Assembly (NCBI GenBank): GCA_022825665.1
Contig: JAJDWI010000123.1
Coordinates: 1-37,120, forward strand
DNA length: 37,120 bases
From: Candidatus Poribacteria bacterium
GTDB taxonomy: Bacteria; Poribacteria; WGA-4E; WGA-3G
Direction of reading: 5' to 3'
The position numbers and the translations under genes were made by a program. Positions 16,452-32,086 of this stretch are shown here, one piece after another. The stretch's first letter is position 1. Each line of letters starts with the position of its first letter. The notes under the pieces were generated by a model, which was not told the origin of the DNA, did no database searches, and saw nothing but the letters and a program-made list of their open reading frames with translations.

Positions 16452-18767
16452 CTAATCAATTGCGATCTGTTCTATGGAATGAACGAATAAGACATCGTTA
16501 ACATCTTGGAAACGTTGCAGCACGTCTGTCAATCGGTCAGAATTTATGTCTTCTGCTGTTATTCCGTAGATTACCAAATCTGCTTGAGCGGATCTATGTG
16601 CTACTTCTTGTTCTAATCCTTCCTCACTATCATAAGGTACAGAGGTGACATTCTGCATAGAAATAGGAAGTCTTCCTTCTTTGATAACATCTGAGAGTCT
16701 GTTAGCATCCAATTCAGCTTCCCAAGAACCGGAACATGCAAATAGACGGATCTTGGCACGTTTCCATTCTGGATGTCCCACCAGTATATATGCCAGTAAC
16801 AGCATCATAGGCACATTACTGATGTTGTCATCAGTTACCCATACATGAATTGAGGACCGGTATCCAAAGCGGTATTTCGTTGAACGTAGGATAAGGACAT
16901 TGAATAGAGATGCAACAGCAAGTTGAGCACCGAGTTTAACTTCGTCTATTTCTTCTGGATGATTTTTATCGAATTCCAGTAGGATGGAGTTATTTGGCAA
17001 ACCACTAATCCCAGGCATCTGGAGAGCATGAGCTAATGCAAGATCGAATGTTGGACAGATAAGCGAATCTACAAAAATACCTGCTCCGCTTGCTTCAGAT
17101 TGTTGTATTAAAGCTTCAACATGAATTCGTGCTGTGATTTCTTCTGTAAAAGAATATTCTCCAGGGAAAAATTGGATAAAGTGTCCAAATCCTTGTCTAT
17201 GGCATATCCAACGTAGGAGGTCAAAATGACCGAGACGTCGTTCCCCGAATTGTGTTATCGCTACGATTGAAGGTCGCCAACCACTGTCGGATGCACCTGC
17301 TCTGCTTTTCTGTAGTGTCGTCTGAAGCCATCTTGTTAATTGAAACATCGTCCCTTGGAATATACCTGTGATACCGAGAGGTTCACGGTTTCCGCGACGA
17401 AGTCCAATATAGATTGCGAGCATGATAAATATTGAAAGGGATGCATAGAACACATCTATCTGGAGCATCATTAAACCGCACATTACGGTTCCTAAGAGTG
17501 ATACATACCATCGTGAATGGAATGTTGGTCGGTAAGATGGATTTCCTGCAAAGTGTTCAAGGAATGACACAATGCATAAGGCTCCATAAGTAACAAGAAA
17601 GAACATGGTTAGAATCCGAGCGATGAAGTTTAGTTCTCCAATAGCAACGAACACCAGTGCAACTGCACCAGAGACGAAAGTTGCGGGAATCGGTTCTTGA
17701 CTTTTTCCTACACCTGTTCGCATGAGCCGGTTTAAACCTGGTATGGGTAAAACGTCGTCCCTTCCAAGTGCTTGCAGTGTTCTGGGAGCAATCATAATAG
17801 AACCGAGTGCTGATGATAACGATGCTGCACCTAATCCAATAAATATTGCTGGTCCCCAAGCAGATATTTTTGCCATTATAAATGGGTCATTCGCAAGAAA
17901 TTCAGGTAAAGCACTTTGACATAGTTTAAATGCCACAAATATATATATAACCATACCAGCAAGTGTAGCACTGATAGTTCCAAGTGGGATACTCCGTTGT
18001 GGGTTCTTCAAATCACCGGATAACCCTAAACCAGCAATCATCCCTGTAAAGGCAGGAAAACAGATAGCAAATACTTTACCAAAAGAATCAGCACCATCCT
18101 TTATTCCTTCCGTGATATTTAATGTTTCAGGACGAAATGGCACCTCGACCCCTTCAACCAATATGGTAGTACCTGGATTTCCAAGAAAAAATGTAGATAG
18201 TGATACAGTCAGAATTCCACAGATCAACCATAACATTGAAACTCCAATATTTGCACCTTTTGTCAACATAATGATGATAAGAATCAATGTGCCTGGGATG
18301 CTGATCCACCGGACATCAATAGCTTCCTTAAAGAATTCTGGATATTTTGCTACAAACATATCTAGTACAGGTTGAAAAGCTTCGGCAAATGCGACCATGT
18401 AAAATGCTATTGAAATTGCTTGCGAAATATACAGTGCTATTCCAATAGTACCACCGATACTTGTTCCGAATGAACGGCTAACGATATAGTAGGCACCACC
18501 CCCAGCAACTCTACGGTTTGTTGCTACTTCTGAAACGGCAAGTACTGTTGGGATAGTTACCAGATGTCCAAGCACAATGATCGCAAGACTTTTCAAAAAC
18601 CCAACATGACCTACTGCATAACCGAACCGTAGGAATAGTATTGCCCCTAATATAGTACTTATTGAGGCAAGAAAGACAGGAGCAGTACCAAATCCATGTC
18701 CATGTTGTTCAACACCATTGTTCCAATCAGAACCTGACTGATTTGTTTGTCTCAATTTTGAAAACAT
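16452..18767 (-). CDS. SLC12-like cation-chloride cotransporter (APC superfamily)
   Basis: A 771-residue transporter. Residues about 25-455 have twelve helices of the APC fold and read like the SLC12 family: GTAPVFLASISTILGAILFL, RFGYAVGHVGF and VAGGGAYYIVSRSFGTSIGG. The C-terminal 300 residues are a soluble domain starting at WRPSIVAITQF, as in Na-K-Cl and K-Cl cotransporters. Bacterial relatives are known, though in bacteria the ions carried are mostly unproven. Amino-acid permeases of the same superfamily lack this long C-terminal domain. GAAGGA lies 8 bases before the ATG. It has a 136-base gap to corA. Confidence 0.88.
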   Translation of the reverse strand: MFSKLRQTNQSGSDWNNGVEQHGHGFGTAPVFLASISTILGAILFLRFGYAVGHVGFLKSLAIIVLGHLVTIPTVLAVSEVATNRRVAGGGAYYIVSRSFGTSIGGTIGIALYISQAISIAFYMVAFAEAFQPVLDMFVAKYPEFFKEAIDVRWISIPGTLILIIIMLTKGANIGVSMLWLICGILTVSLSTFFLGNPGTTILVEGVEVPFRPETLNITEGIKDGADSFGKVFAICFPAFTGMIAGLGLSGDLKNPQRSIPLGTISATLAGMVIYIFVAFKLCQSALPEFLANDPFIMAKISAWGPAIFIGLGAASLSSALGSIMIAPRTLQALGRDDVLPIPGLNRLMRTGVGKSQEPIPATFVSGAVALVFVAIGELNFIARILTMFFLVTYGALCIVSFLEHFAGNPSYRPTFHSRWYVSLLGTVMCGLMMLQIDVFYASLSIFIMLAIYIGLRRGNREPLGITGIFQGTMFQLTRWLQTTLQKSRAGASDSGWRPSIVAITQFGERRLGHFDLLRWICHRQGFGHFIQFFPGEYSFTEEITARIHVEALIQQSEASGAGIFVDSLICPTFDLALAHALQMPGISGLPNNSILLEFDKNHPEEIDEVKLGAQLAVASLFNVLILRSTKYRFGYRSSIHVWVTDDNISNVPMMLLLAYILVGHPEWKRAKIRLFACSGSWEAELDANRLSDVIKEGRLPISMQNVTSVPYDSEEGLEQEVAHRSAQADLVIYGITAEDINSDRLTDVLQRFQDVNDVLFVHSIEQIAID

Positions 18768-21504: not shown

Positions 21505-23457
21505 ATGGACAATCAACCTACCGTATCATCAAAACCTTCTCAGATTCCTACCCACGGAGTTACATTCAAATCCATACTAATTGCCTCTGTCCTAATTCCT
21601 ATTAATTGCTATTGGGTGATTGAAATGGAGGTAATCCGATATTCAGGACATCCAGTAACGATTTCACTCTTCTTTAATGTAATTTTTAGTTTGTTCGTGC
21701 TAATAGGGTTTAACCAGTTGTTGCGACGTTTTCTTCCACGAATTGCATTGGTGCAAAGCGAATTGGTCATTGTTTATCTAATGCTATCTATTGCGTCAGG
21801 AATAACAGGACACGATATGTTGGAAATATTGGTACCGATGTTAGGACATGCATTTCGCTTTGCAACTCCAGAAAATGAATGGCAGCAGTTGTTTTTACCG
21901 TTTCTCCCAGAATGGCTTACGGTCAGTAATAATAGATTATTACAAGGTTATTATGAAGGAGATCTACCACTTTATACAATTGATACCTTATTTGGTTGGG
22001 CAACACCTGTATTGTGGTGGACTGCATTTATCACTGTTTTAGTTTTCGGCATGTTGTGCATAAATGTAATCATACGCAAGCAGTGGATTGAATATGAAAA
22101 ACTAAGTTATCCCATAATACATCTGCCACTCAATCTAACAGAAACGGATCATAATCGATTTTTTAAGAATAAATTAATGTGGTTAGGTTTCGGCATTGCT
22201 GGTGGTTTAGTATTATGGAACGGTATCAGTTTTTTATTTCCATTCCTACCTGAATTACGTACCCGTAATCAGAGCTATCAGATTTTTACTGAGAGTCCTT
22301 GGAACGCTATGGGTAGAATTCCCTTTTCGCTATATCCATTTGCAATTGGTCTTGGATTCTTTATTCCGCTTGATCTCTCATTTTCTTGTTGGTTTTTTTT
22401 CTGGTATTGGCGTTTATTACGGGTAGTCGGGGCAATGTTTGGGTTTCGAAATCTACCCGGATTTCCATATATGAACGAACAGGCATCTGGAGGGTATCTG
22501 GCATTGTGCGTATTGGCTGTATGGGCAAGCCGACGACATCTTCTCCATGTGGGGCAAATGATATTTGGTCGAAACACATCTCAAGAGGATACAGATTCTC
22601 CGATCTCATACGGCACAGCAGTCTTTGGTCTGATCGCAGTGATGATTGCTTTGGTTATATTTTGTTACTATGGTGGGGCAAACATCTGGGTTATGTTTGC
22701 ATTTTTTGCTATATATTATATGATTTCTATAGCAATCACCCGTATGCGTGCGGAGTTAGGTACGCCTGTGCATGACTTGCACTATTCCGGACCTGATCAA
22801 ATCTTAACGCGGGTCATAGGAACAAGACGGTTAGGTAGAGATAATCTCATTATGTTCTCAATGTTTTGGTTCATCAACCGGGCATATAGGAGTCACCCGA
22901 TGCCACACCAATTGGAAGGATTTAAAATCATTGAACGCACGAACATGACGATGCGTAGGATCGTCTTTGCTTTGATGTTAGCAACCGTATTGGGGTCATT
23001 GGCGGGTTTTTGGTCATTAATTGACAGAGGATATCAATTAGGTATGGAAGTACGAGCTTCCTCTCCATCCTTGACAGCATTTGGTATTGAACCGTATAGA
23101 CGTTTAGCAGGCTGGCTTCAATCTTCATCCGACACACTCATACCAGAAAGTGGGTTTATGGGATTTGGTTTTCTGATGACAACCGTCCTGATGTTATGCC
23201 GCATGCAGTTTGTGTGGTGGCCGTTTCATCCTGCCGGATTTGCTATTTCTACAAGTTGGGGAATGAATGTTACATGGGGCTGTCTTTTCATGAGTTGGTT
23301 AATTAAACTGGTCATCCTCAAGTATGGTGGACCTGTGAAATATCGTAAAATAGCACCCTTTTTCTTAGGTCTTATTCTTGGAGAATTCACAGTAGGAAGT
23401 ATCTGGACGATTATAGGAATTGTTGGGGGAATACCAACCTACGGTTTCTGGGTTTAA
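21505..23457 (+). CDS. DUF6785-type large membrane protein
   Basis: A 650-residue protein with about twelve to fourteen hydrophobic helices. Features that look familiar from the DUF6785/DUF6784 type are SELVIVYLMLSIASGITGHD, the region HAFRFATPENEWQQLF and RMRAELGTPVHDLHYSGPDQ. The family is frequent in Poribacteria and Planctomycetes; function is unknown. The overall helix pattern resembles OPT-type transporters, but I see no substrate motif. The start lacks a clear ribosome-binding site. The stop TAA overlaps that of the converging P-type ATPase-like gene by four bases. Confidence 0.8.
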   Translation: MDNQPTVSSKPSQIPTHGVTFKSILIASVLIPINCYWVIEMEVIRYSGHPVTISLFFNVIFSLFVLIGFNQLLRRFLPRIALVQSELVIVYLMLSIASGITGHDMLEILVPMLGHAFRFATPENEWQQLFLPFLPEWLTVSNNRLLQGYYEGDLPLYTIDTLFGWATPVLWWTAFITVLVFGMLCINVIIRKQWIEYEKLSYPIIHLPLNLTETDHNRFFKNKLMWLGFGIAGGLVLWNGISFLFPFLPELRTRNQSYQIFTESPWNAMGRIPFSLYPFAIGLGFFIPLDLSFSCWFFFWYWRLLRVVGAMFGFRNLPGFPYMNEQASGGYLALCVLAVWASRRHLLHVGQMIFGRNTSQEDTDSPISYGTAVFGLIAVMIALVIFCYYGGANIWVMFAFFAIYYMISIAITRMRAELGTPVHDLHYSGPDQILTRVIGTRRLGRDNLIMFSMFWFINRAYRSHPMPHQLEGFKIIERTNMTMRRIVFALMLATVLGSLAGFWSLIDRGYQLGMEVRASSPSLTAFGIEPYRRLAGWLQSSSDTLIPESGFMGFGFLMTTVLMLCRMQFVWWPFHPAGFAISTSWGMNVTWGCLFMSWLIKLVILKYGGPVKYRKIAPFFLGLILGEFTVGSIWTIIGIVGGIPTYGFWV

Positions 23458-26180
23458 TTAATTTCTTTCCTCGGGTTGATAGCCAAATTTAAAGGTAAAA
23501 GGAGTAAGATAATACAGCATAAACCTGTTATTATCCATTCTTGTTGAAGTGGAACTATACCCAAGACATTCTGCATAGGTTCAATATACATAGAAGATAC
23601 GTGAATACCAATTGCTAATATGAATATAAAAAATAACCTTATATTTATAAACATTCTTTTAAACAGAGATTCCCAAGGGTATCGTACGCATTGGAAGTAA
23701 GAAAATATCTGAGCTAAAACCAGAGTTGTGCAAGCTGCGGTTTGTGCCTCTATCAGATTTGATTGCGTTGATGTAATTGTTACTACTAAAAAATGGATTA
23801 TCGTCATTAGACTGATAACAAAACTGCGACATACAATATCAAAGACAGCAGTTTTTGGAATCAGTAAGGTTACTCTTCTTGGTAGATGTTGCTTTACATT
23901 TACAGATATTCTATCGTATCCTAATCCTATAGCTGGAAGCATCGTGGTTAAAAATTGAACCCAAATAACATGTGTTAGCGTTAAAGGCATCTCAAAGTTG
24001 AATGCTCTATATAAAATTAATCCAAAAATGACCGTCAGGAATTGCGTTAGTGTACATGAAAGACACCATCGTAGTGCTCCTGATAGGTTGTTATAAGCCT
24101 CACGGGCAAAGGGCAGACAATCTTTAACTGCTTTGAACCCTTTGTCAACAATCAGACAATCTGCATGGTCTTGTGCGAAATGTGTAGCGTAACTTGTATC
24201 TGCAAATGCAAGATTAGCAGCAATCATTGCACGTTGATCTTTCGAATACTGTCCTAAGTACCCTACAGAATGATTATGTCGTTTTAAGCTAAGAACAATA
24301 TCCCGACGTTGTTCTTGGGTCGGTTGTGAATAAGCATTCCAATTTGGTACTTCTTTGTCAAACTCTTGCGTTGAGAGATTAATAAGTTCATCCCTTGTTC
24401 CAACCGAATTACGTGTATGTATTAACCCAAGTTCTTTTGCTAAATCAGTTGTTGATTGTTCATTACTATCACTAATAAGAATAACCTTTAATCCGGTGTC
24501 AAGGAAAGATTTAATCACATTTTTTGTCTCATCAGTATCAGTGGCAGAGAAACCAATGAATCCTAAAAAGGTAGACGCTCCTTGAACTTCCGATGGATTA
24601 AGTGGTACATCGGAGTGTATGGTGGCAACCCCGTAAACCATATCTCTGGTATTTTGCATGTATTTGAGTGTTTCACTATATATCTCGTATTGATCATAAT
24701 AGAAATCTTTGAGTTCTCCATTGATAAGGATTGAATTGCATGCTTCAAGCACATTACTTGCATCACCAAAAATTAGGTTGAGATACTCATTTTCACCTGA
24801 TTTAAATACATGGAGTTCATATCCGAAATTTGGGGTCCATGGGTATTCTGCAACAAGACGCATATCTGATTTAAGATCTGCAAACTTATATCCAAGTTTA
24901 TCTAATGTTTCTCTGATAACTTGTTGATGTGCGTGATCAATATCAGTTCTATCGTAATAGCGTTCACCAGAAGTCCCCATACCCGCTGCCAGAACAAGAC
25001 CTGGTGCACCTTGTGGAATTTGGAACCGCGGAGGTATGTTGTTGACTCGATTGCTTTTTTCTTCCGGGGTGTGTGCATCAAGGGAATGTATCCATTTTTC
25101 CCATACTGAACGGTTAACCAATTGTTCATCAACAAAAATATTTGAAATTGTTAGAGATTTAGTGCTTGCAATTCCCTTTTCATCAGAACAGAAAGCAGTT
25201 AATCGGTTTAGTTTCTCAAAGAAATTTCTATTCCGAAGTACTATTCCTTTCTTAAGTAATTTGAAGGAATTCAAATCAAGTATTGCTTGTAGAAGCAAAT
25301 TTAGGTCATAAGGTGTTGCAGCGATTGCAAAAACTAAACCGAATTGAATTAACTCCTTCCAATCAGGTTGTTCATTTAGTTGTGATGTCTGCCACCAATC
25401 AATTGCAACTGCTAATCCTCCCACAACCAAGCCTGCTACTAATAGAATATCTTGAAAAAACTTAATCTGATTTTCAGCAACAGTCATCTCATTCGGCATA
25501 GGACGGGTATGAGCATGGTTCTGATTCATTTCCAACTCATCACCGGTTCTAACAACAATCGCTTGACCCATTCCTGTATCAACATACGTCCCACCAAAGA
25601 CCATGTTGGTTTGTCTTTCCGGAGGTAGACCTACCTCGTCTATTTCCTGTACAGACTTATCAGCTGATCCGCTACTTCCAAATAAACCAGATTCATTTAC
25701 TGTTAAACCATCAGCTTCAACGATACGTGCATCTGCAGGAATGTAATTACCTGGTCTAAGTAGTAAGAGATCACCAGGTACAATATCGGATGAGGGACAT
25801 TTTTCTTGCTTTCCTTGACGTATAACTGAGACGGTCAGGTTGAATTGTCCTTTAAGTTTGTTTTTCTTTTTCTGTAAACTAATCACAACAATTATAGACC
25901 ATGAAAAAGAGAGAATAACAATTGCACTAATAAGGGCAATTGTCGTTACTTTATTCAAGAATCCGAATACAACTATTGCAATAACTAAAAATAGTAATCT
26001 CCAGTTAAATATATGCTCAAGAAAAGATCCAATTTGCAAAGAATCGATTTGAGATTTCGATTCGTTTTTACCAAAACGAATCTGTAACTTCTCAACATCA
26101 GAATGGTTTAATCCTGATTCCAAATCGGTTTTAAATTGGTTTAGCAGAAAAGAGATGCTTTCTGCATAAAAATTAGACAT
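23454..26180 (-). CDS. P-type ATPase-like protein lacking catalytic motifs (predicted pseudoenzyme)
   Basis: An intact 908-residue relative of Ca2+/H+-type P-type ATPases. The A-domain text DIVPGDLLLLRPG, YIPADARIVEADGLTVNES, the M4 region and the six C-terminal helices are recognisable. Yet the key motifs differ: TGES is FGSS (about 167-170), PEGL is PYDL (about 290), DKTGTLT is DEKGIAST with the aspartate kept (about 333), KGA is FGD, DPPR is SATD, TGD is SDS, and GDGVND reads GQYSKD. The ATP-site lysine and Mg2+ ligands are therefore missing. A working pump is very unlikely; a regulator, scaffold or binding protein is possible. I chose ATG 26180, with TAGGA about 7 bases upstream, over GTG 26198. 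The frame has no stop or shift. Confidence 0.85.
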   Translation of the reverse strand: MSNFYAESISFLLNQFKTDLESGLNHSDVEKLQIRFGKNESKSQIDSLQIGSFLEHIFNWRLLFLVIAIVVFGFLNKVTTIALISAIVILSFSWSIIVVISLQKKKNKLKGQFNLTVSVIRQGKQEKCPSSDIVPGDLLLLRPGNYIPADARIVEADGLTVNESGLFGSSGSADKSVQEIDEVGLPPERQTNMVFGGTYVDTGMGQAIVVRTGDELEMNQNHAHTRPMPNEMTVAENQIKFFQDILLVAGLVVGGLAVAIDWWQTSQLNEQPDWKELIQFGLVFAIAATPYDLNLLLQAILDLNSFKLLKKGIVLRNRNFFEKLNRLTAFCSDEKGIASTKSLTISNIFVDEQLVNRSVWEKWIHSLDAHTPEEKSNRVNNIPPRFQIPQGAPGLVLAAGMGTSGERYYDRTDIDHAHQQVIRETLDKLGYKFADLKSDMRLVAEYPWTPNFGYELHVFKSGENEYLNLIFGDASNVLEACNSILINGELKDFYYDQYEIYSETLKYMQNTRDMVYGVATIHSDVPLNPSEVQGASTFLGFIGFSATDTDETKNVIKSFLDTGLKVILISDSNEQSTTDLAKELGLIHTRNSVGTRDELINLSTQEFDKEVPNWNAYSQPTQEQRRDIVLSLKRHNHSVGYLGQYSKDQRAMIAANLAFADTSYATHFAQDHADCLIVDKGFKAVKDCLPFAREAYNNLSGALRWCLSCTLTQFLTVIFGLILYRAFNFEMPLTLTHVIWVQFLTTMLPAIGLGYDRISVNVKQHLPRRVTLLIPKTAVFDIVCRSFVISLMTIIHFLVVTITSTQSNLIEAQTAACTTLVLAQIFSYFQCVRYPWESLFKRMFINIRLFFIFILAIGIHVSSMYIEPMQNVLGIVPLQQEWIITGLCCIILLLLPLNLAINPRKEIN

Positions 26181-26239
26181 ATTCTTTCCTAACGTCACTC
26201 GTTTTTGACAACAGTAAGGTATAATATAAAGAAATGGAT

Positions 26240-27157
26240 TTATGTATTATCAGAGATGAGTTTTGCCCCTTCTACATCAGTTCCTATCACCAGTATATCG
26301 CTCGGTATTCCGTGTTGCTTAAATACATTTTGCATGCTTTTTCCTACTTCTTGCATGTTATCAAGACAATAGGCAGCGATAGTTGGTCCTGCTCCACTCA
26401 ATGCAATACTAAGTGCACCCGCTGATAATGCGGCTTCAACAACATCATCAAATCCAGGAATAAGCGTGCTGCGGTAAGGTTGGTGCAGCTTATCGTTCAT
26501 TGCAGTAGACAACATCTCCAATTTTCCTGTTGCTATACTTGCAACAAGCAATGAACTACGACTTATATTATAGATAGCGTCAGAAAAATCTACTGTTTTT
26601 GGCAATATATTCCGTGCTTTCTGTGTGGATAATGTAAACTCTGGAATTGCAAGGACTACATATAATGCTGGGTCACATTTTAACTGTATAGTGTGTATAT
26701 GTTTATCATCTTGGACAGAAATTACTAAACCACCATACAAAGATGCGGCGACATTATCAGGATGCCCTTCAAGGGTTGACGCAAAATTGAGGAGATCTGA
26801 CCGAGAAAATGGATTCTCACACAATAGATTCGCTGTCAATAATCCCCCAAGAATAGCAGTACCGCTACCACCTAATCCACGAATGGCAGGGATACCATTC
26901 GCAATTGTCAATTTTAGTCCCTTCGGTTGCGATTTTCCGCTCTTTTTATATATGGTTTCTACTGCTTGAAATGCAATATGTTCATTACTACTCGGTATTT
27001 TGTCAACATCAACACCACTCACTATAACTTCTGTCTTGCTTCCAGTAATTTCTAAAGTTACGGTGCTGTAGAGTTGCAATGCCAGTCCAAGTACATCAAA
27101 TCCAGGACCCAGATTTGTAGTGCTGGCAGGAATGCGCGCGGTTGCTTTTAAAGACAT
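26240..27157 (-). CDS. thrB: Homoserine kinase
   Basis: A 305-residue GHMP-family kinase that phosphorylates L-homoserine at its hydroxyl with ATP, the step before threonine synthase. Seen motifs: ARIPASTTNLGPGFDVLGLA (N-terminal substrate site), the ATP-binding loop IRGLGGSGTAILGGL where most relatives have RGLGSSAA, EGHPDNVAASLYGGLVIS, and the C-terminal ALSGAGPTIAAY. Length is typical. It follows the aminotransferase gene by 22 bases on the same strand, so both are likely one transcript and both serve the aspartate-family amino-acid pathway. Serine-to-glycine change in the ATP loop is the only oddity. Confidence 0.95.
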   Translation of the reverse strand: MSLKATARIPASTTNLGPGFDVLGLALQLYSTVTLEITGSKTEVIVSGVDVDKIPSSNEHIAFQAVETIYKKSGKSQPKGLKLTIANGIPAIRGLGGSGTAILGGLLTANLLCENPFSRSDLLNFASTLEGHPDNVAASLYGGLVISVQDDKHIHTIQLKCDPALYVVLAIPEFTLSTQKARNILPKTVDFSDAIYNISRSSLLVASIATGKLEMLSTAMNDKLHQPYRSTLIPGFDDVVEAALSAGALSIALSGAGPTIAAYCLDNMQEVGKSMQNVFKQHGIPSDILVIGTDVEGAKLISDNT

Positions 27158-27179: not shown

Positions 27180-28352
27180 CTACAACTTTGCTAATGCAGT
27201 GTTGATTCTACTTAATGCATCGTTGATATTATCCAAAGAATTGGCATAAGATAATCTGAGATAACCATCACCATATTTTCCGAAAGCAGTCCCAGGTAAT
27301 AGTGCTACACCTACTTCGTCCATCAAATAGTCAGCAATTGCTTCACACGATAAGGGTAGTTGTGTGACATTCGGAAAAACATAGAACGAACCGAGTGGTT
27401 TGACACACGAGATTCCATCTATAGCATTTAAACCGTCAACAATGGTATCTCTACGTATTCTAAATTCCTCTACCATTTCTGAAACAAAAGTTTGAGGACC
27501 AGTCAATGCTTCAATACCAGCAATTTGTGTGAAAGTTGCTGTACATGAATTTGAGTTGATAGTCAACTGTGTTATCTTGTCAGCGATCTCGCGCGGAGCA
27601 ATTCCATATCCAAGTCTCCAACCGGTCATAGCGTATGTTTTTGAATGACCGTCAATCAGTATAGTGCGTTCTTTCATTCCTGGGAGACTGATGACACTTT
27701 TGTGGGATCCTTCGTAAAGTAGGCGAGAATAAACTTCGTCAGTCAGGATATAGAAATTATGTTTTTCGGCGAGTTCTGCAATGGCTTTGAGATCAGTTTC
27801 GGTAAGTGTTCCACCTGTTGGGTTTTGTGGAGAATTGAGTATCAATAATTTCGTGCGATCAGAAATTGCATTAATTAAATCCTCAATTCTGAAGCGAAAA
27901 TCTACCTCTTCACGAAGAGCAAGAGGCACGGCTTTACCGCCGATAAAATCAATTACCGATTCGTAAACTGGGAAGCCGGGTTCAGGATAGATTACTTCAT
28001 CACCATCATCTATTAAAGCTAATATAGTGAAGAAAATAATTGGTTTGGCACCAGGAGTGACAGTCACTTCGTCGGGATGTATGTCAACACCTCGCGTCTC
28101 AGAGATATGTTGTGCAACAACTTCTCTAAATTCGGGTAACCCTGCTGATGGACAATAACCTGTATGTCCATCCTTCATAGCCTTGTATGCTGCATCACAA
28201 ACATTCATCGGGGTCGAAAAGTCTGGTTGACCTATTTCTAAATGAATAATATCTCTACCTTGAGCTTCTAAGTTTTTTGCTTTGGCTAATACTTCAAATG
28301 CCGATTCTGTTCCCAAGCGACTCATCCGCTTGGCGAATGTAGGGCTTACCAA
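27180..28352 (-). CDS. PLP-dependent aminotransferase, class I/II (aspartate aminotransferase type)
   Basis: A 390-residue fold-type I aminotransferase. It contains IIHLEIGQPDFSTP near the start, SPQNPTGGTLTETDL, ILTDEVYSRLLYEG, the PLP-lysine motif DGHSKTYAMTGWRLGYG and the C-terminal GYLRLSYANSLDNI with the substrate-binding arginine. It converts an amino acid and a 2-oxo acid, most likely aspartate and 2-oxoglutarate, but the exact substrate cannot be read from sequence. The start is decided by AAGGAGG, which lies 6 bases before TTG 28352; a GTG at 28373 would place that site inside the gene. Upstream of thrB in a probable operon. Confidence 0.93.
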   Translation of the reverse strand: MVSPTFAKRMSRLGTESAFEVLAKAKNLEAQGRDIIHLEIGQPDFSTPMNVCDAAYKAMKDGHTGYCPSAGLPEFREVVAQHISETRGVDIHPDEVTVTPGAKPIIFFTILALIDDGDEVIYPEPGFPVYESVIDFIGGKAVPLALREEVDFRFRIEDLINAISDRTKLLILNSPQNPTGGTLTETDLKAIAELAEKHNFYILTDEVYSRLLYEGSHKSVISLPGMKERTILIDGHSKTYAMTGWRLGYGIAPREIADKITQLTINSNSCTATFTQIAGIEALTGPQTFVSEMVEEFRIRRDTIVDGLNAIDGISCVKPLGSFYVFPNVTQLPLSCEAIADYLMDEVGVALLPGTAFGKYGDGYLRLSYANSLDNINDALSRINTALAKL

Positions 28353-28461
28353 AATAATCCTCCTTTTTGTCACACTGCGAGTTTATATCGCATCGCTGCC
28401 CTTGATAATCCTAACCATAATAACTTCAATTGGAAGTTTCATTAATACTCAATGATGAAAC

Positions 28462-29484
28462 CTATTCCGGTTTGATGATGAAACCGTTTGTCCCTACTAA
28501 CCATGCATTTTGTTTATCAAGAACGGAAACCTTTTCCATCTTTACTTCTGATTCTTCGAGTGTCCAAGTCTGTCCTCCATCGGTTGTGCTCAATACGACA
28601 CCAACCCCGATATCACCACCGACTGCCCATCCGATATTCTTATCTGCAAAACGCACGCTACGGATTGTCTCTTCGGTGCCACTTGTTTGTTCTGTCCAAG
28701 TGTTTCCTCCATTATCTGTATGGAGTATTAGACCATTTTCACCAACTGCCCATCCTACTGATGCATCGAGAAAGAAAATGTCTTCAAGAATATCTTCTTT
28801 TCCAGTCTCTTGTGGAGTCCATGTCTGTGCACCATCATCAGTTTTTAAAATAACAGTTTTTTGTGTTTTTTCTGTGGGGAAAACTCGGACTCCTGCGATC
28901 CAACCATTTTTTTCGTCAATGAACTGAACAGCATTGAACATACTTGCATCGTCATCACCAACTTCTCCTACAATGCCACCTTGTAGAACTTTCCATTGTC
29001 GTCCACCATTTTTTGTTGAAATAATAGTATCATTTTGTCCAACTGCGAATCCTACATCTTTGGAAACGAAATAGATACTTGTCAAGGTAGTTCCGACTTT
29101 ACTAATTTGTATATCCCAATCTTTACCATTGGTGGTATTGGCAATTATTCCGTTTTGTCCAACCACCCAACCGTGATTATCATCAAAAAAATAGATTTCG
29201 GTTAGGTCTGATTCCAACTTGATTTCTGATCTTTCCCATGTTTTCCCACCATCCATAGTAAATCCAATGAAGCCGGGATTTTCAAAATCTTCAAATGCTG
29301 CTGAACCAGCAGTCCATCCTGTTCTTTCGCTTGTAAATGCAATTGTCATATAATCTCGAATATCTGGATCACTTTGCTGTAGGATAACCCATCCTGCAAT
29401 TGCAGGTAATGTAAATATCAAACTACACAAAATAGTGAATTTAATGATATATGATTTGCGTAGAAATGACTTTAATTTGATCAT
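28462..29484 (-). CDS. YCF48-type (photosystem stability factor-like) beta-propeller protein
   Basis: A 340-residue secreted or periplasmic protein with a signal anchor (residues about 12-32) followed by about six repeats of the YCF48/BNR-like pattern W.VG..G.I..T.DGG.TW, for example GWVVGQNGIIANTTNGKDW and GWAVGENGLILHTDNGGNTW. In cyanobacteria such a propeller helps assemble photosystem II; in non-phototrophs these proteins are common with unknown role, so the name describes the fold only. AAGGAG lies a few bases before the ATG. It has its own 232-base upstream gap and is probably transcribed alone. Confidence 0.88.
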   Translation of the reverse strand: MIKLKSFLRKSYIIKFTILCSLIFTLPAIAGWVILQQSDPDIRDYMTIAFTSERTGWTAGSAAFEDFENPGFIGFTMDGGKTWERSEIKLESDLTEIYFFDDNHGWVVGQNGIIANTTNGKDWDIQISKVGTTLTSIYFVSKDVGFAVGQNDTIISTKNGGRQWKVLQGGIVGEVGDDDASMFNAVQFIDEKNGWIAGVRVFPTEKTQKTVILKTDDGAQTWTPQETGKEDILEDIFFLDASVGWAVGENGLILHTDNGGNTWTEQTSGTEETIRSVRFADKNIGWAVGGDIGVGVVLSTTDGGQTWTLEESEVKMEKVSVLDKQNAWLVGTNGFIIKPE

Positions 29485-29716: not shown

Positions 29717-31114
29717 CTATTTTGCTACAATGATTGTTCCGGTCTTGTAACTTTCTCCGACCTGTAATTGATATAGATAGATACCGCTTTCAACGATATC
29801 ACCATTATCATTTTTTCCGTCCCATCTCAATTCGCTATCACCAAGTTGAGCAGTGAGTGTTTTTACCAATACGCCATTAAGATTATAGAGAAGCACACTG
29901 AACTCTCCATCACTATCGTCTATGGTCTGTATGGGAAATATGACCATATTAAAATCGGGATCACTCGAAAGTGGTGTAAAGGGATTTGGATACGGTTTAT
30001 TAAATATACGGTATCTTTTCTTTACTGGCGCAGATGTATTATTTGCTTCATCTATTGCGACCACTGCATAAGTATAACTACCAATAGATAAAGGTCTACG
30101 ATCAATATATTCATATTCTGTAGTGCTGTTTGTGGATCTATTCACAGGTATTTCACCATCTATCAGTTGTTCTAAGGTTGTAGTTTCTGCGGATCCGAAC
30201 AAAATATGATACTTTGATGTATCTCTACTTTCACTGGGGTTCCACGATACCTTGATACCTTCATCGATTCGGTCTATTCGGAGTCCTGTTGGAGGTTTAG
30301 GAGCAGCTGTGTCGACTGAAACGACAACGGTTTGAATTGGAGATCGTCCAGATTGTAATAAGATCGTCTTATACGCAGTAATTTCATATTTGTGTTCACC
30401 CGGTGTAACATTTATATCACGATATGTTGTTGAAGCACGGTTTTCCACTGTAATTTGAAAGTCATTATCGCGATAGATCAGGTATCCGTTGACATCAGGA
30501 TCAGTTGAATTTTTCCATCGAAGGGTAACATCATTTTCACCATTCTTGTCAGCTTCAGCAGTGAAGTCTGTTACAGGAGCAGGTGGAACATTTGGAATTA
30601 TTTGCAAATCTAAATCATCATTGTTGAGTTTACTATCTGCTTGTCCAGGACGGATATATTCTCCGACGGGAACATCATCAGGATTTCGCAGCCTAACACT
30701 GAATTCAGCCAAAAATATGGTATTCGGAGTACGTGAATCAAATGTGATATTAAAAATGGAATTTTGAAAATCATCAATGACTTCAGTTAGTTCTACGCGT
30801 AGTACATTGCCTCCAGAAACCACCACTTTTGCTAATAGTTTTTCTCCATCTCTTGTAACACTTTTAAAGTCTGACACCTGTGTAACAAAACCTTTTGGCA
30901 TGGTAATTTCTATTGTCTTAATTTCTTCTCCGGGAACTGCAAGCGATCTGTCTACTGAAAGCGTTACAACTAATGGAACTGTCGAACTTGCAGGTACAAT
31001 GCCGACGGTTTCACCGACTACGTTAATTTCTCCATGTGATGTGACCGCACTATAACTATATGGAGCAATTAGAAGACATACGATAAAATAGAAGATATAG
31101 ATGTGGTGTTTCAT
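29717..31114 (-). CDS. Secreted FN3-domain protein with FlgD/T9SS-like C-terminal domain
   Basis: A 465-residue exported protein. Signal peptide (residues 1-22), an N-terminal strand-rich domain (about 25-170), two fibronectin type III domains (about 180-275, from PAPVTDFTAEAD, and 277-370, from PKPPTGLRIDRIDEG), then a C-terminal domain opening with PYPNPFTP and ending SGIYLYQLQVGES..KTGTIIVAK. The PNPF start and the ENGDI-SGIYLY-like end are typical of FlgD-Ig/type A sorting domains used with the type IX secretion system. GAAGGA is 8 bases upstream of the ATG. It lies 15 bases after the PorV-like gene, an OM protein family linked to the same system. Function unknown beyond this. Confidence 0.8.
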   Translation of the reverse strand: MKHHIYIFYFIVCLLIAPYSYSAVTSHGEINVVGETVGIVPASSTVPLVVTLSVDRSLAVPGEEIKTIEITMPKGFVTQVSDFKSVTRDGEKLLAKVVVSGGNVLRVELTEVIDDFQNSIFNITFDSRTPNTIFLAEFSVRLRNPDDVPVGEYIRPGQADSKLNNDDLDLQIIPNVPPAPVTDFTAEADKNGENDVTLRWKNSTDPDVNGYLIYRDNDFQITVENRASTTYRDINVTPGEHKYEITAYKTILLQSGRSPIQTVVVSVDTAAPKPPTGLRIDRIDEGIKVSWNPSESRDTSKYHILFGSAETTTLEQLIDGEIPVNRSTNSTTEYEYIDRRPLSIGSYTYAVVAIDEANNTSAPVKKRYRIFNKPYPNPFTPLSSDPDFNMVIFPIQTIDDSDGEFSVLLYNLNGVLVKTLTAQLGDSELRWDGKNDNGDIVESGIYLYQLQVGESYKTGTIIVAK

Positions 31115-31129
31115 GTATTTTTTCCTTCT

Positions 31130-32086
31130 TTAGAACAGTAGATTTACAGAGAATCTTTGTGTTGTGTTGTCCTGAAAGTCTCCATTCAATAACTGAATTC
31201 CGTAGTCCAATTGAAGTAATGATCCACCAATTGGAAGCATGGCACTGCCTCCCAGACTAAAAGATGTTGCTGTATTTGTGCTATTATTCCTTGCAAAGCC
31301 TCCACGGATACCAATGGTTTTAATCACCCACATTTCTACACCAACACTTGTATATATTTCACCATCACGAGATGTTACCTCAAAAGTGCCCAAAGTTTCT
31401 TTTAAAAGGTTACTGATTGCAGCTCCCTGTGCACTCATTTCAGCAATTGATTCAAGACTGTATGTAATACCTGCTCGAATGTTCATAGGTATAGGATCTT
31501 CGTGAGTTTCTGATATACTGATATCAGCGGGGACCAGATTCTCTATAGAAACTCCGAGGCTAAGGCTATTGAATGGCTTCGCTAAAAGTCCAAGATCAAG
31601 TGATAACGCAGAACTTGAGGTATTAGCAAAGTACGGGTTCTCTGCAACAAATTCGTTTGTTTCATCATAAGATGTACCGAGATGTTTCAGATTTATTCCT
31701 AATCCCAACTGTTTTATGATGGTCCTACCGTAAGACAATCGTATAGTTTGTTCTCTATATATATCAGAGTCTTCAGTAAGGATTCCGATATTTGCTCCAA
31801 GAGTGCCTATGCCACCGAGAGGAACAACTCCGACAATAGTATTGTAACTTACAAGACCGTTAAATCGCTGTGCATGTGTAGCACTGATGTGTATGTCCTC
31901 AATATAGGCTAATCCTGCAGCATTATAGTTAGCAGCATTGCTATCATCGGCAAGTGCAACAAAGGCACCGCCGAGACCAAGTGGACGTGCCCCAATTCCA
32001 ATTTCATTAAATGCCGCATACCCAGATGAGATGAAAAAAATAGATATGAATAGTAAATTAAAACACATAAATCTTATTTTCGTCAT
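31130..32086 (-). CDS. PorV/PorQ-like outer-membrane barrel protein (UPF0164-type)
   Basis: A 318-residue outer-membrane protein. After a signal peptide ending near SGYAA comes the family's N-terminal motif ARPLGLGGAFVALADDSNAA..NAAGLAY, then about fourteen barrel strands, ending QRFSVNLLF with a terminal aromatic. PorV-type proteins shuttle type IX cargo to the surface and help attach it. GGAG lies 5 bases before the ATG. The start codon overlaps the stop of the methyltransferase gene by four bases (ATGA), which indicates translational coupling. Other T9SS core genes are not in the window. Confidence 0.85.
   Translation of the reverse strand: MTKIRFMCFNLLFISIFFISSGYAAFNEIGIGARPLGLGGAFVALADDSNAANYNAAGLAYIEDIHISATHAQRFNGLVSYNTIVGVVPLGGIGTLGANIGILTEDSDIYREQTIRLSYGRTIIKQLGLGINLKHLGTSYDETNEFVAENPYFANTSSSALSLDLGLLAKPFNSLSLGVSIENLVPADISISETHEDPIPMNIRAGITYSLESIAEMSAQGAAISNLLKETLGTFEVTSRDGEIYTSVGVEMWVIKTIGIRGGFARNNSTNTATSFSLGGSAMLPIGGSLLQLDYGIQLLNGDFQDNTTQRFSVNLLF

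Follow-up and report, generated by a model that had tools for sequence, protein, structure and literature searches.

We analysed a 37,120-nucleotide stretch of DNA from Candidatus Poribacteria bacterium (hereafter the window) and found that the gene at 23454..26180 on the minus strand encodes a P-type ATPase body of 908 amino acids that lacks the residues needed for the normal pump cycle. The protein has a P2A fold, as judged from its open reading frame, an AlphaFold2 model and Foldseek comparison, and we refer to it as a pseudopump. Its catalytic residues are lost, its fold is kept, it is under purifying selection and the losses are common by descent; these are the features that define a pseudoenzyme. 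We conclude that the protein is very likely a selected, non-pumping pseudoenzyme; this is inferred from the sequence and the model alone.

Reading frame, domains and predicted fold

The open reading frame spans 23454-26198 (minus strand) and begins with GTG, while the conserved start, common to relatives, is the ATG at 26180 (MSNFYAES...), giving 908 codons with a stop at 23454 and none internal. Pfam matches above the cut-offs were obtained for E1-E2_ATPase, Cation_ATPase_C and Cation_ATPase_N. The nearest sequence relatives in the PDB were Ca2+ pumps of the PMR1/LMCA1 type (E 3e-49), and the best NCBIfam profile was TIGR01522. The domain order and the ten helices are the same as in the P2A Ca2+-ATPases PMR1/SPCA and the bacterial LMCA1 (lmo0841; 6zhf, 9euq; TIGR01522), but the window protein reached only 224 bits against the curated cut-off of 798.3, so that it falls short of the equivalog criterion, and it has lost 19/22 functional residues (see below).

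The AlphaFold2 model of the window protein, built with 27 family sequences, had a pLDDT of 85.4 and a pTM of 0.78 and showed all ten membrane helices as well as the A, N and P domains. In this predicted structure, the A domain comprises residues 1-45 and 112-231, the P domain residues 326-345 and 540-689, and the N domain residues 346-539. The membrane helices are M1 (60-74), M2 (78-111), M3 (~234-267), M4 (274-310, broken at the invariant P290), M5 (681-727), M6 (735-753), M7 (776-803), M8 (808-832), M9 (847-865) and M10 (881-894). The model of a member of the highly divergent family f5 (~20% identity) had a pLDDT of 81.3 and an unchanged architecture. Foldseek matches were P-type pumps, mostly in E1 states (Na,K-ATPase, SERCA, SPCA1), and included a channel-forming Na,K-ATPase with bound palytoxin (9vj0); in the absence of a canonical control model, no conformation was inferred. 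By fold and descent, the protein is thus a member of the P-type ATPase superfamily (A, N, P and ten-helix M domains; Pfam, AlphaFold2, Foldseek). Both the ten-helix membrane body and the cytosolic A, N and P domains are retained, the fold being a model prediction, and all of them are under purifying selection.

Lost and kept functional residues

In the window protein, TGES is replaced by F167GSS, PEGL by P290YDL, KGA by F471GD, TGD by S570DS and GDGVND by G643QYSKD, and the equivalent of the DPPR column is A546-T-D-T; none of the hallmarks TGES, KGA, DPPR, TGD and GDGxND is therefore present. DKTGTLT has become D333EKGIAS, and the DKTGT motif with its catalytic Asp, Lys and Thr (DEKGI in the window protein) reads NENGL, DEVGN, DPRGV or VEHTG in relatives. 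The original prediction was of a full-length, 908-residue P-type ATPase that keeps the A domain, the phosphorylation aspartate and all helices but has lost the other motifs. This held for the reading frame, the modelled helices and D333, and also for the motif losses except for a register slip at DPPR, which had been read as SATD. The retained aspartate needed refinement, since it is not conserved family-wide: several lineages carry Asn, Glu or Gln instead.

To quantify the losses, we used 21 canonical bacterial P2A pumps, which have 152 columns that are at least 95% invariant, and 22 pseudopump rows. Sixteen of these columns were catalytic (SERCA1 numbers E183, D351, K352, T353, T355, F487, K515, R560, D601, R604, T625, D627, K684, D703, N706 and D707) and six belonged to the ion site (E309, N768, E771, N796, T799 and D800). 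Functional roles have been assigned to these SERCA1-numbered residues in the P-type family: K515 serves in ATP binding, K352, T353 and D703 in nucleophile activation and Mg2+ binding, E183 in dephosphorylation, and D601 and D627 in hinge or phosphate contacts. Mean retention across the pseudopump rows was 21% for the catalytic and 8% for the ion-site columns, compared with 45% for the remaining 130 columns and 80% for the other, structural columns of the A domain (Mann-Whitney p=0.0004). The motif loss in pseudopumps is far from chance. The window protein retains 2/16 catalytic and 1/6 ion-site residues, and pseudopumps in general 1-8 of the 22, whereas the canonical controls printed have all 22. 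Both K515 and the Mg2+ aspartate D703 are lost in 22/22 rows. The residues needed for the normal pump cycle are missing, as the sequence demonstrates directly.

The same is true of the Ca2+ site. At E309, N768, E771, N796, T799 and D800 the window protein has Y, T, Q, Q, T and T, and across the family 0-1 of these six residues are retained. The M4/M5/M6 Ca2+ site is missing besides the motor, and the protein is not merely a pump with a dead motor. One could still imagine a passive conduit, in which the ten-helix body lets a small solute through as an ungated channel or facilitator, possibly one tied to the adjacent aspartate/threonine genes. In favour of it, the M4 break has an invariant P290, the ion site of the window genus now carries neutral polar residues (T710, Q713, Q742, T745, T746) and the palytoxin channel 9vj0 is among the structural matches. 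Against it, the residues at the six positions differ from family to family (f5, for example, has H, L/M, E, I/V and F) without a common substitute. The families thus conserve no shared substrate site, which speaks against a conserved transport path; furthermore, the N and P domains of a conduit could decay freely, yet they are constrained. We regard this explanation, for which flux is inferred without data, as unlikely. The T/Q/Q/T residues of the window genus had suggested that a neutral solute site is conserved within the membrane, but this was rejected class-wide, as the replacements vary between families.

Not all active-site positions have drifted. The K684 position (K/R625 in the window protein, HAD motif III) stays K/R and the D707 position (D648, the last Asp of motif IV) stays D in 21/22 rows each, showing that the HAD pocket is not randomised; the HAD motif II position (T/S570) stays T/S in 17/22. 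The position of the adenine-stacking F487 is aromatic in only part of the family. The nucleophile is Asp in the window genus, Asn in its sister genera (CANENG), Asn or Gln in family f3 and Glu in families f6 and f7. An active transporter with rewired chemistry, hydrolysing ATP by non-canonical residues, could be argued from the complete fold and from the persistence of D333 in 12/22 representatives. Such a transporter is nevertheless very unlikely, given that several lineages have exchanged the nucleophile for Asn, Glu or Gln and that D703 is lost in every row. The drift of the nucleophile among D, N, E and Q also speaks against hidden phosphorylation; together with the lack of a shared ion-site substitute, it suggests that selection maintains neither phosphorylation nor a common ion site.

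The core of the A domain is invariant (G136, D137, G144, A149, D150, R152, K175, N192 and G203). Mapping of conserved residues onto the model, as the original prediction had proposed in search of a new binding site, yielded no more than a weak lead: D781, R785, Q830 and R833, family-specific residues conserved on the cytosolic face of M7-M9, might form a new interface. The lead is weak because these residues are not retained in family f5 and because canonical pumps carry a similar F-N-x-R motif nearby. The C-terminal LPLN was dropped as a family-specific interface, as canonical pumps have a nearby LP with a gap shift in the alignment. We also observed that the sister genera g2-g4 (open reading frames of L020-L030) have an extra ~30-60 residues in the outward M7-M8 loop that are absent in the window genus; in Na,K-ATPase, the outward M7-M8 loop contacts the beta subunit.

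Distribution, ancestry and selection

The gene was present in 59/60 relatives searched, and a phylum profile search added 23 further genomes of the same class, so that an orthologue or a fragment (some copies being fragments at contig edges) was found in 82/83 class genomes. The sole class genome without it, G004, is 81% complete; the absence is likely an assembly gap, because the neighbouring homoserine kinase gene thrB is missing there too. We checked the motifs of 54 class orthologues, one of them truncated by a contig end: the losses were common to all, in close and distant relatives, and none had restored motifs. A pseudopump was also identified in G060, a genome of another class (contig L101, 4148-6949; TGVS, SNKKGIMT, GKNSSD), with no match to TGES, DKTGT, KGA, DPPR, TGD or GDGxND. 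Elsewhere in this genome are canonical P2A fragments and an MgtA-like pump. Near the G060 pseudopump, we noted a gene (L101:2295-3707, minus strand) whose product joins a caspase-like domain (PF00656) to a prolyl isomerase of the cyclophilin type (PF00160).

The pseudopumps all grouped in one clade (SH-aLRT 99) of a 45-sequence tree, joined to canonical bacterial P2A pumps, and the canonical pumps of the same phylum fell outside the clade. The tree was obtained by a quick search and contains long branches (outgroup, L047), so details should be treated with caution. The pseudopump was likely inherited vertically since before the classes split. Among the best non-poribacterial matches (~300 other genomes sampled, top matches only), no pseudopumps were found: these proteins carry canonical motifs, in some cases slightly altered (TGEA or KGS, for example). 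No match to a canonical P2A pump was found in the 83 class genomes; the window genome has one other P-type ATPase above the family cut-off, of the heavy-metal type by size and profile score. Therefore, the pseudopump does not serve as a dummy subunit to a canonical P2A pump encoded in the same genome; this candidate was rejected class-wide and remains possible only in G060.

Pairwise Nei-Gojobori dN/dS values were 0.07-0.21 (35 close pairs) and low in every domain. The P domain had the lowest values in most pairs of the window genus, with 0.008-0.08 in several close pairs. The neighbouring ThrB had similar values (0.07-0.20 in the pairs compared). Over the long term, pseudopumps have diverged faster than canonical pumps, as seen from their longer tree branches; fast long-term divergence is common among pseudoenzymes. 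A recently decaying pseudogene or an assembly artefact could be suspected from G058 (64% complete; L051, L119), where the frame is split into two overlapping open reading frames at L119 8702-11558, possibly by a sequencing error or a true break. Frames are, however, intact in dozens of independent genomes, single-contig ones included, dN/dS is low and the pseudopump is older than the class, so that decay or artefact is all but excluded. Independent recent decay was likewise rejected, the losses being common to orthologues of one clade with low dN/dS. The original prediction of a kept pseudoenzyme instead of a decaying gene is thus supported by shared losses, intact frames and dN/dS values like those of neighbouring enzymes; neither class relatives with normal motifs nor frequent stops, either of which would have spoken against it, were seen.

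Gene neighbourhood and proposed role

Directly upstream of the pseudopump lies the gene for homoserine kinase ThrB (26240..27157, minus strand; TIGR00191, 280.8 bits, above the cut-off of 168.25). It is preceded by a class I/II, aspartate aminotransferase-like gene (27180..28373, minus strand; PF00155, 226 bits), whose best NCBIfam match, asp_aminotase_Arch with 347 bits, was below the model cut-off. Next is the gene for an exported Ycf48/BNR-type beta-propeller (28462..29484, minus strand; PF14870) with an N-terminal hydrophobic signal or anchor. The order Ycf48-like propeller, aminotransferase, ThrB and pseudopump (last) forms a conserved four-gene block. ThrB was directly upstream on the same strand in 46/53 loci with enough 5' flank, the aminotransferase-like gene preceded it in nearly all of these 46, and, where the flanks were longer, the propeller headed the block in most cases. 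Family f6 has the propeller immediately upstream of the pseudopump, without ThrB and the aminotransferase between them; in genus g8 and in G050, the block is lost and the pseudopump persists.

On the other side, the gene for a DUF6785/DUF6784 membrane protein (21505..23457, plus strand) is convergent and overlaps the pseudopump stop by 4 bp. It was rejected as a partner, as its position is conserved only within family f1; its dN/dS was 0.03-0.08 in the pairs tested. Two further observations concern the window itself. The gene at 29717-32086 (minus strand) has weak matches to T9SS sorting/PorU domains and adjoins a gene for a PorV/PorQ-family protein, which suggests, from sequence alone, a type IX-like export module in Poribacteria. 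The gene at 16452-18767 (minus strand), near CorA and MscS genes, encodes an APC-type amino acid permease of 771 aa whose long C-terminal part lies past the Pfam match.

We favour a role as a membrane scaffold or regulatory subunit, with confidence that is evenly balanced, as it is inferred without partner, binding or localisation data. The pseudopump would act by binding, not pumping, because motor and ion site are both lost while the whole fold is constrained. Its P-type body may hold or gate a partner at the membrane. By a weaker inference, the exported Ycf48-like propeller may be one partner, on the periplasmic side, and the cytosolic face of M7-M9 (D781, R785, Q830, R833) may provide a second contact. 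In photosynthetic organisms, Ycf48 acts as an assembly factor for a membrane complex; that the propeller is indeed the partner is unlikely, being inferred from gene neighbourhood with no binding data. Two points weigh against the scaffold reading: conservation of the block, which is lost in g8 and G050, could reflect expression alone, and the kept T/S570, K/R625 and D648 may leave room for residual ligand binding.

The latter is the basis of a rival view, in which the protein is a metabolite or nucleotide sensor whose remnant HAD pocket binds a phosphorylated ligand without hydrolysis. The signal would pass via the A and membrane domains and tune the aspartate-threonine metabolism of the same block. 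For this speak the persistence of the three residues while most catalytic positions are lost, the low dN/dS of the P domain and the position of the gene behind the aminotransferase and ThrB. However, D648 and K/R625 are perhaps kept for folding, the F487 position is only partly aromatic, K515 is lost everywhere and the operon link is missing in g8 and G050. In the absence of binding data, we consider both ligand sensing and the proposed signalling improbable.

Returning to the scaffold reading, loss of catalytic residues with the fold under selection is shared with pseudoenzymes such as pseudokinases, which commonly end up in a scaffold or allosteric role. The bacterial KdpB of KdpFABC is likewise a P-type subunit that acts together with a partner protein, although a partner is only proposed for the pseudopump, but KdpB has catalytic activity as a P-type ATPase (PMC9651954), whereas the pseudopump is expected to be inactive. 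In Plasmodium GC-beta, a degenerate P4-ATPase domain with most signature residues absent is fused to guanylyl cyclase (PMC6592433). As in the pseudopump, a P-type body has been retained with its signature residues mostly absent (PMC6592433), but GC-beta is eukaryotic, P4-type and cyclase-fused, and the pseudopump bacterial, P2A-type and free-standing; GC-beta is a eukaryotic precedent in kind. No bacterial P-type ATPase pseudopump was described in the open-licence literature that we searched, in line with the original prediction; subscription classification papers might mention such sequences.

If the pseudoenzyme interpretation is true, a P-type body can be useful independently of phosphorylation or the usual ion site. 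Pseudopumps would then be a natural experiment on purely structural constraints of the fold, the A-domain core being invariant without catalysis to protect. Since they match calcium-pump profiles, they could be miscounted as calcium pumps in annotation. In a bolder reading, which is no more than possible, a whole class without a detected canonical P2-type pump has a free-standing pseudoenzyme, predating the split of the two classes, that acts as a membrane scaffold or receptor together with an exported propeller encoded in the same block. In the Poribacteria, a sponge-associated phylum, nearly every genome examined has kept the body of a pump without its catalytic and ion-binding residues, very likely for a job other than pumping.
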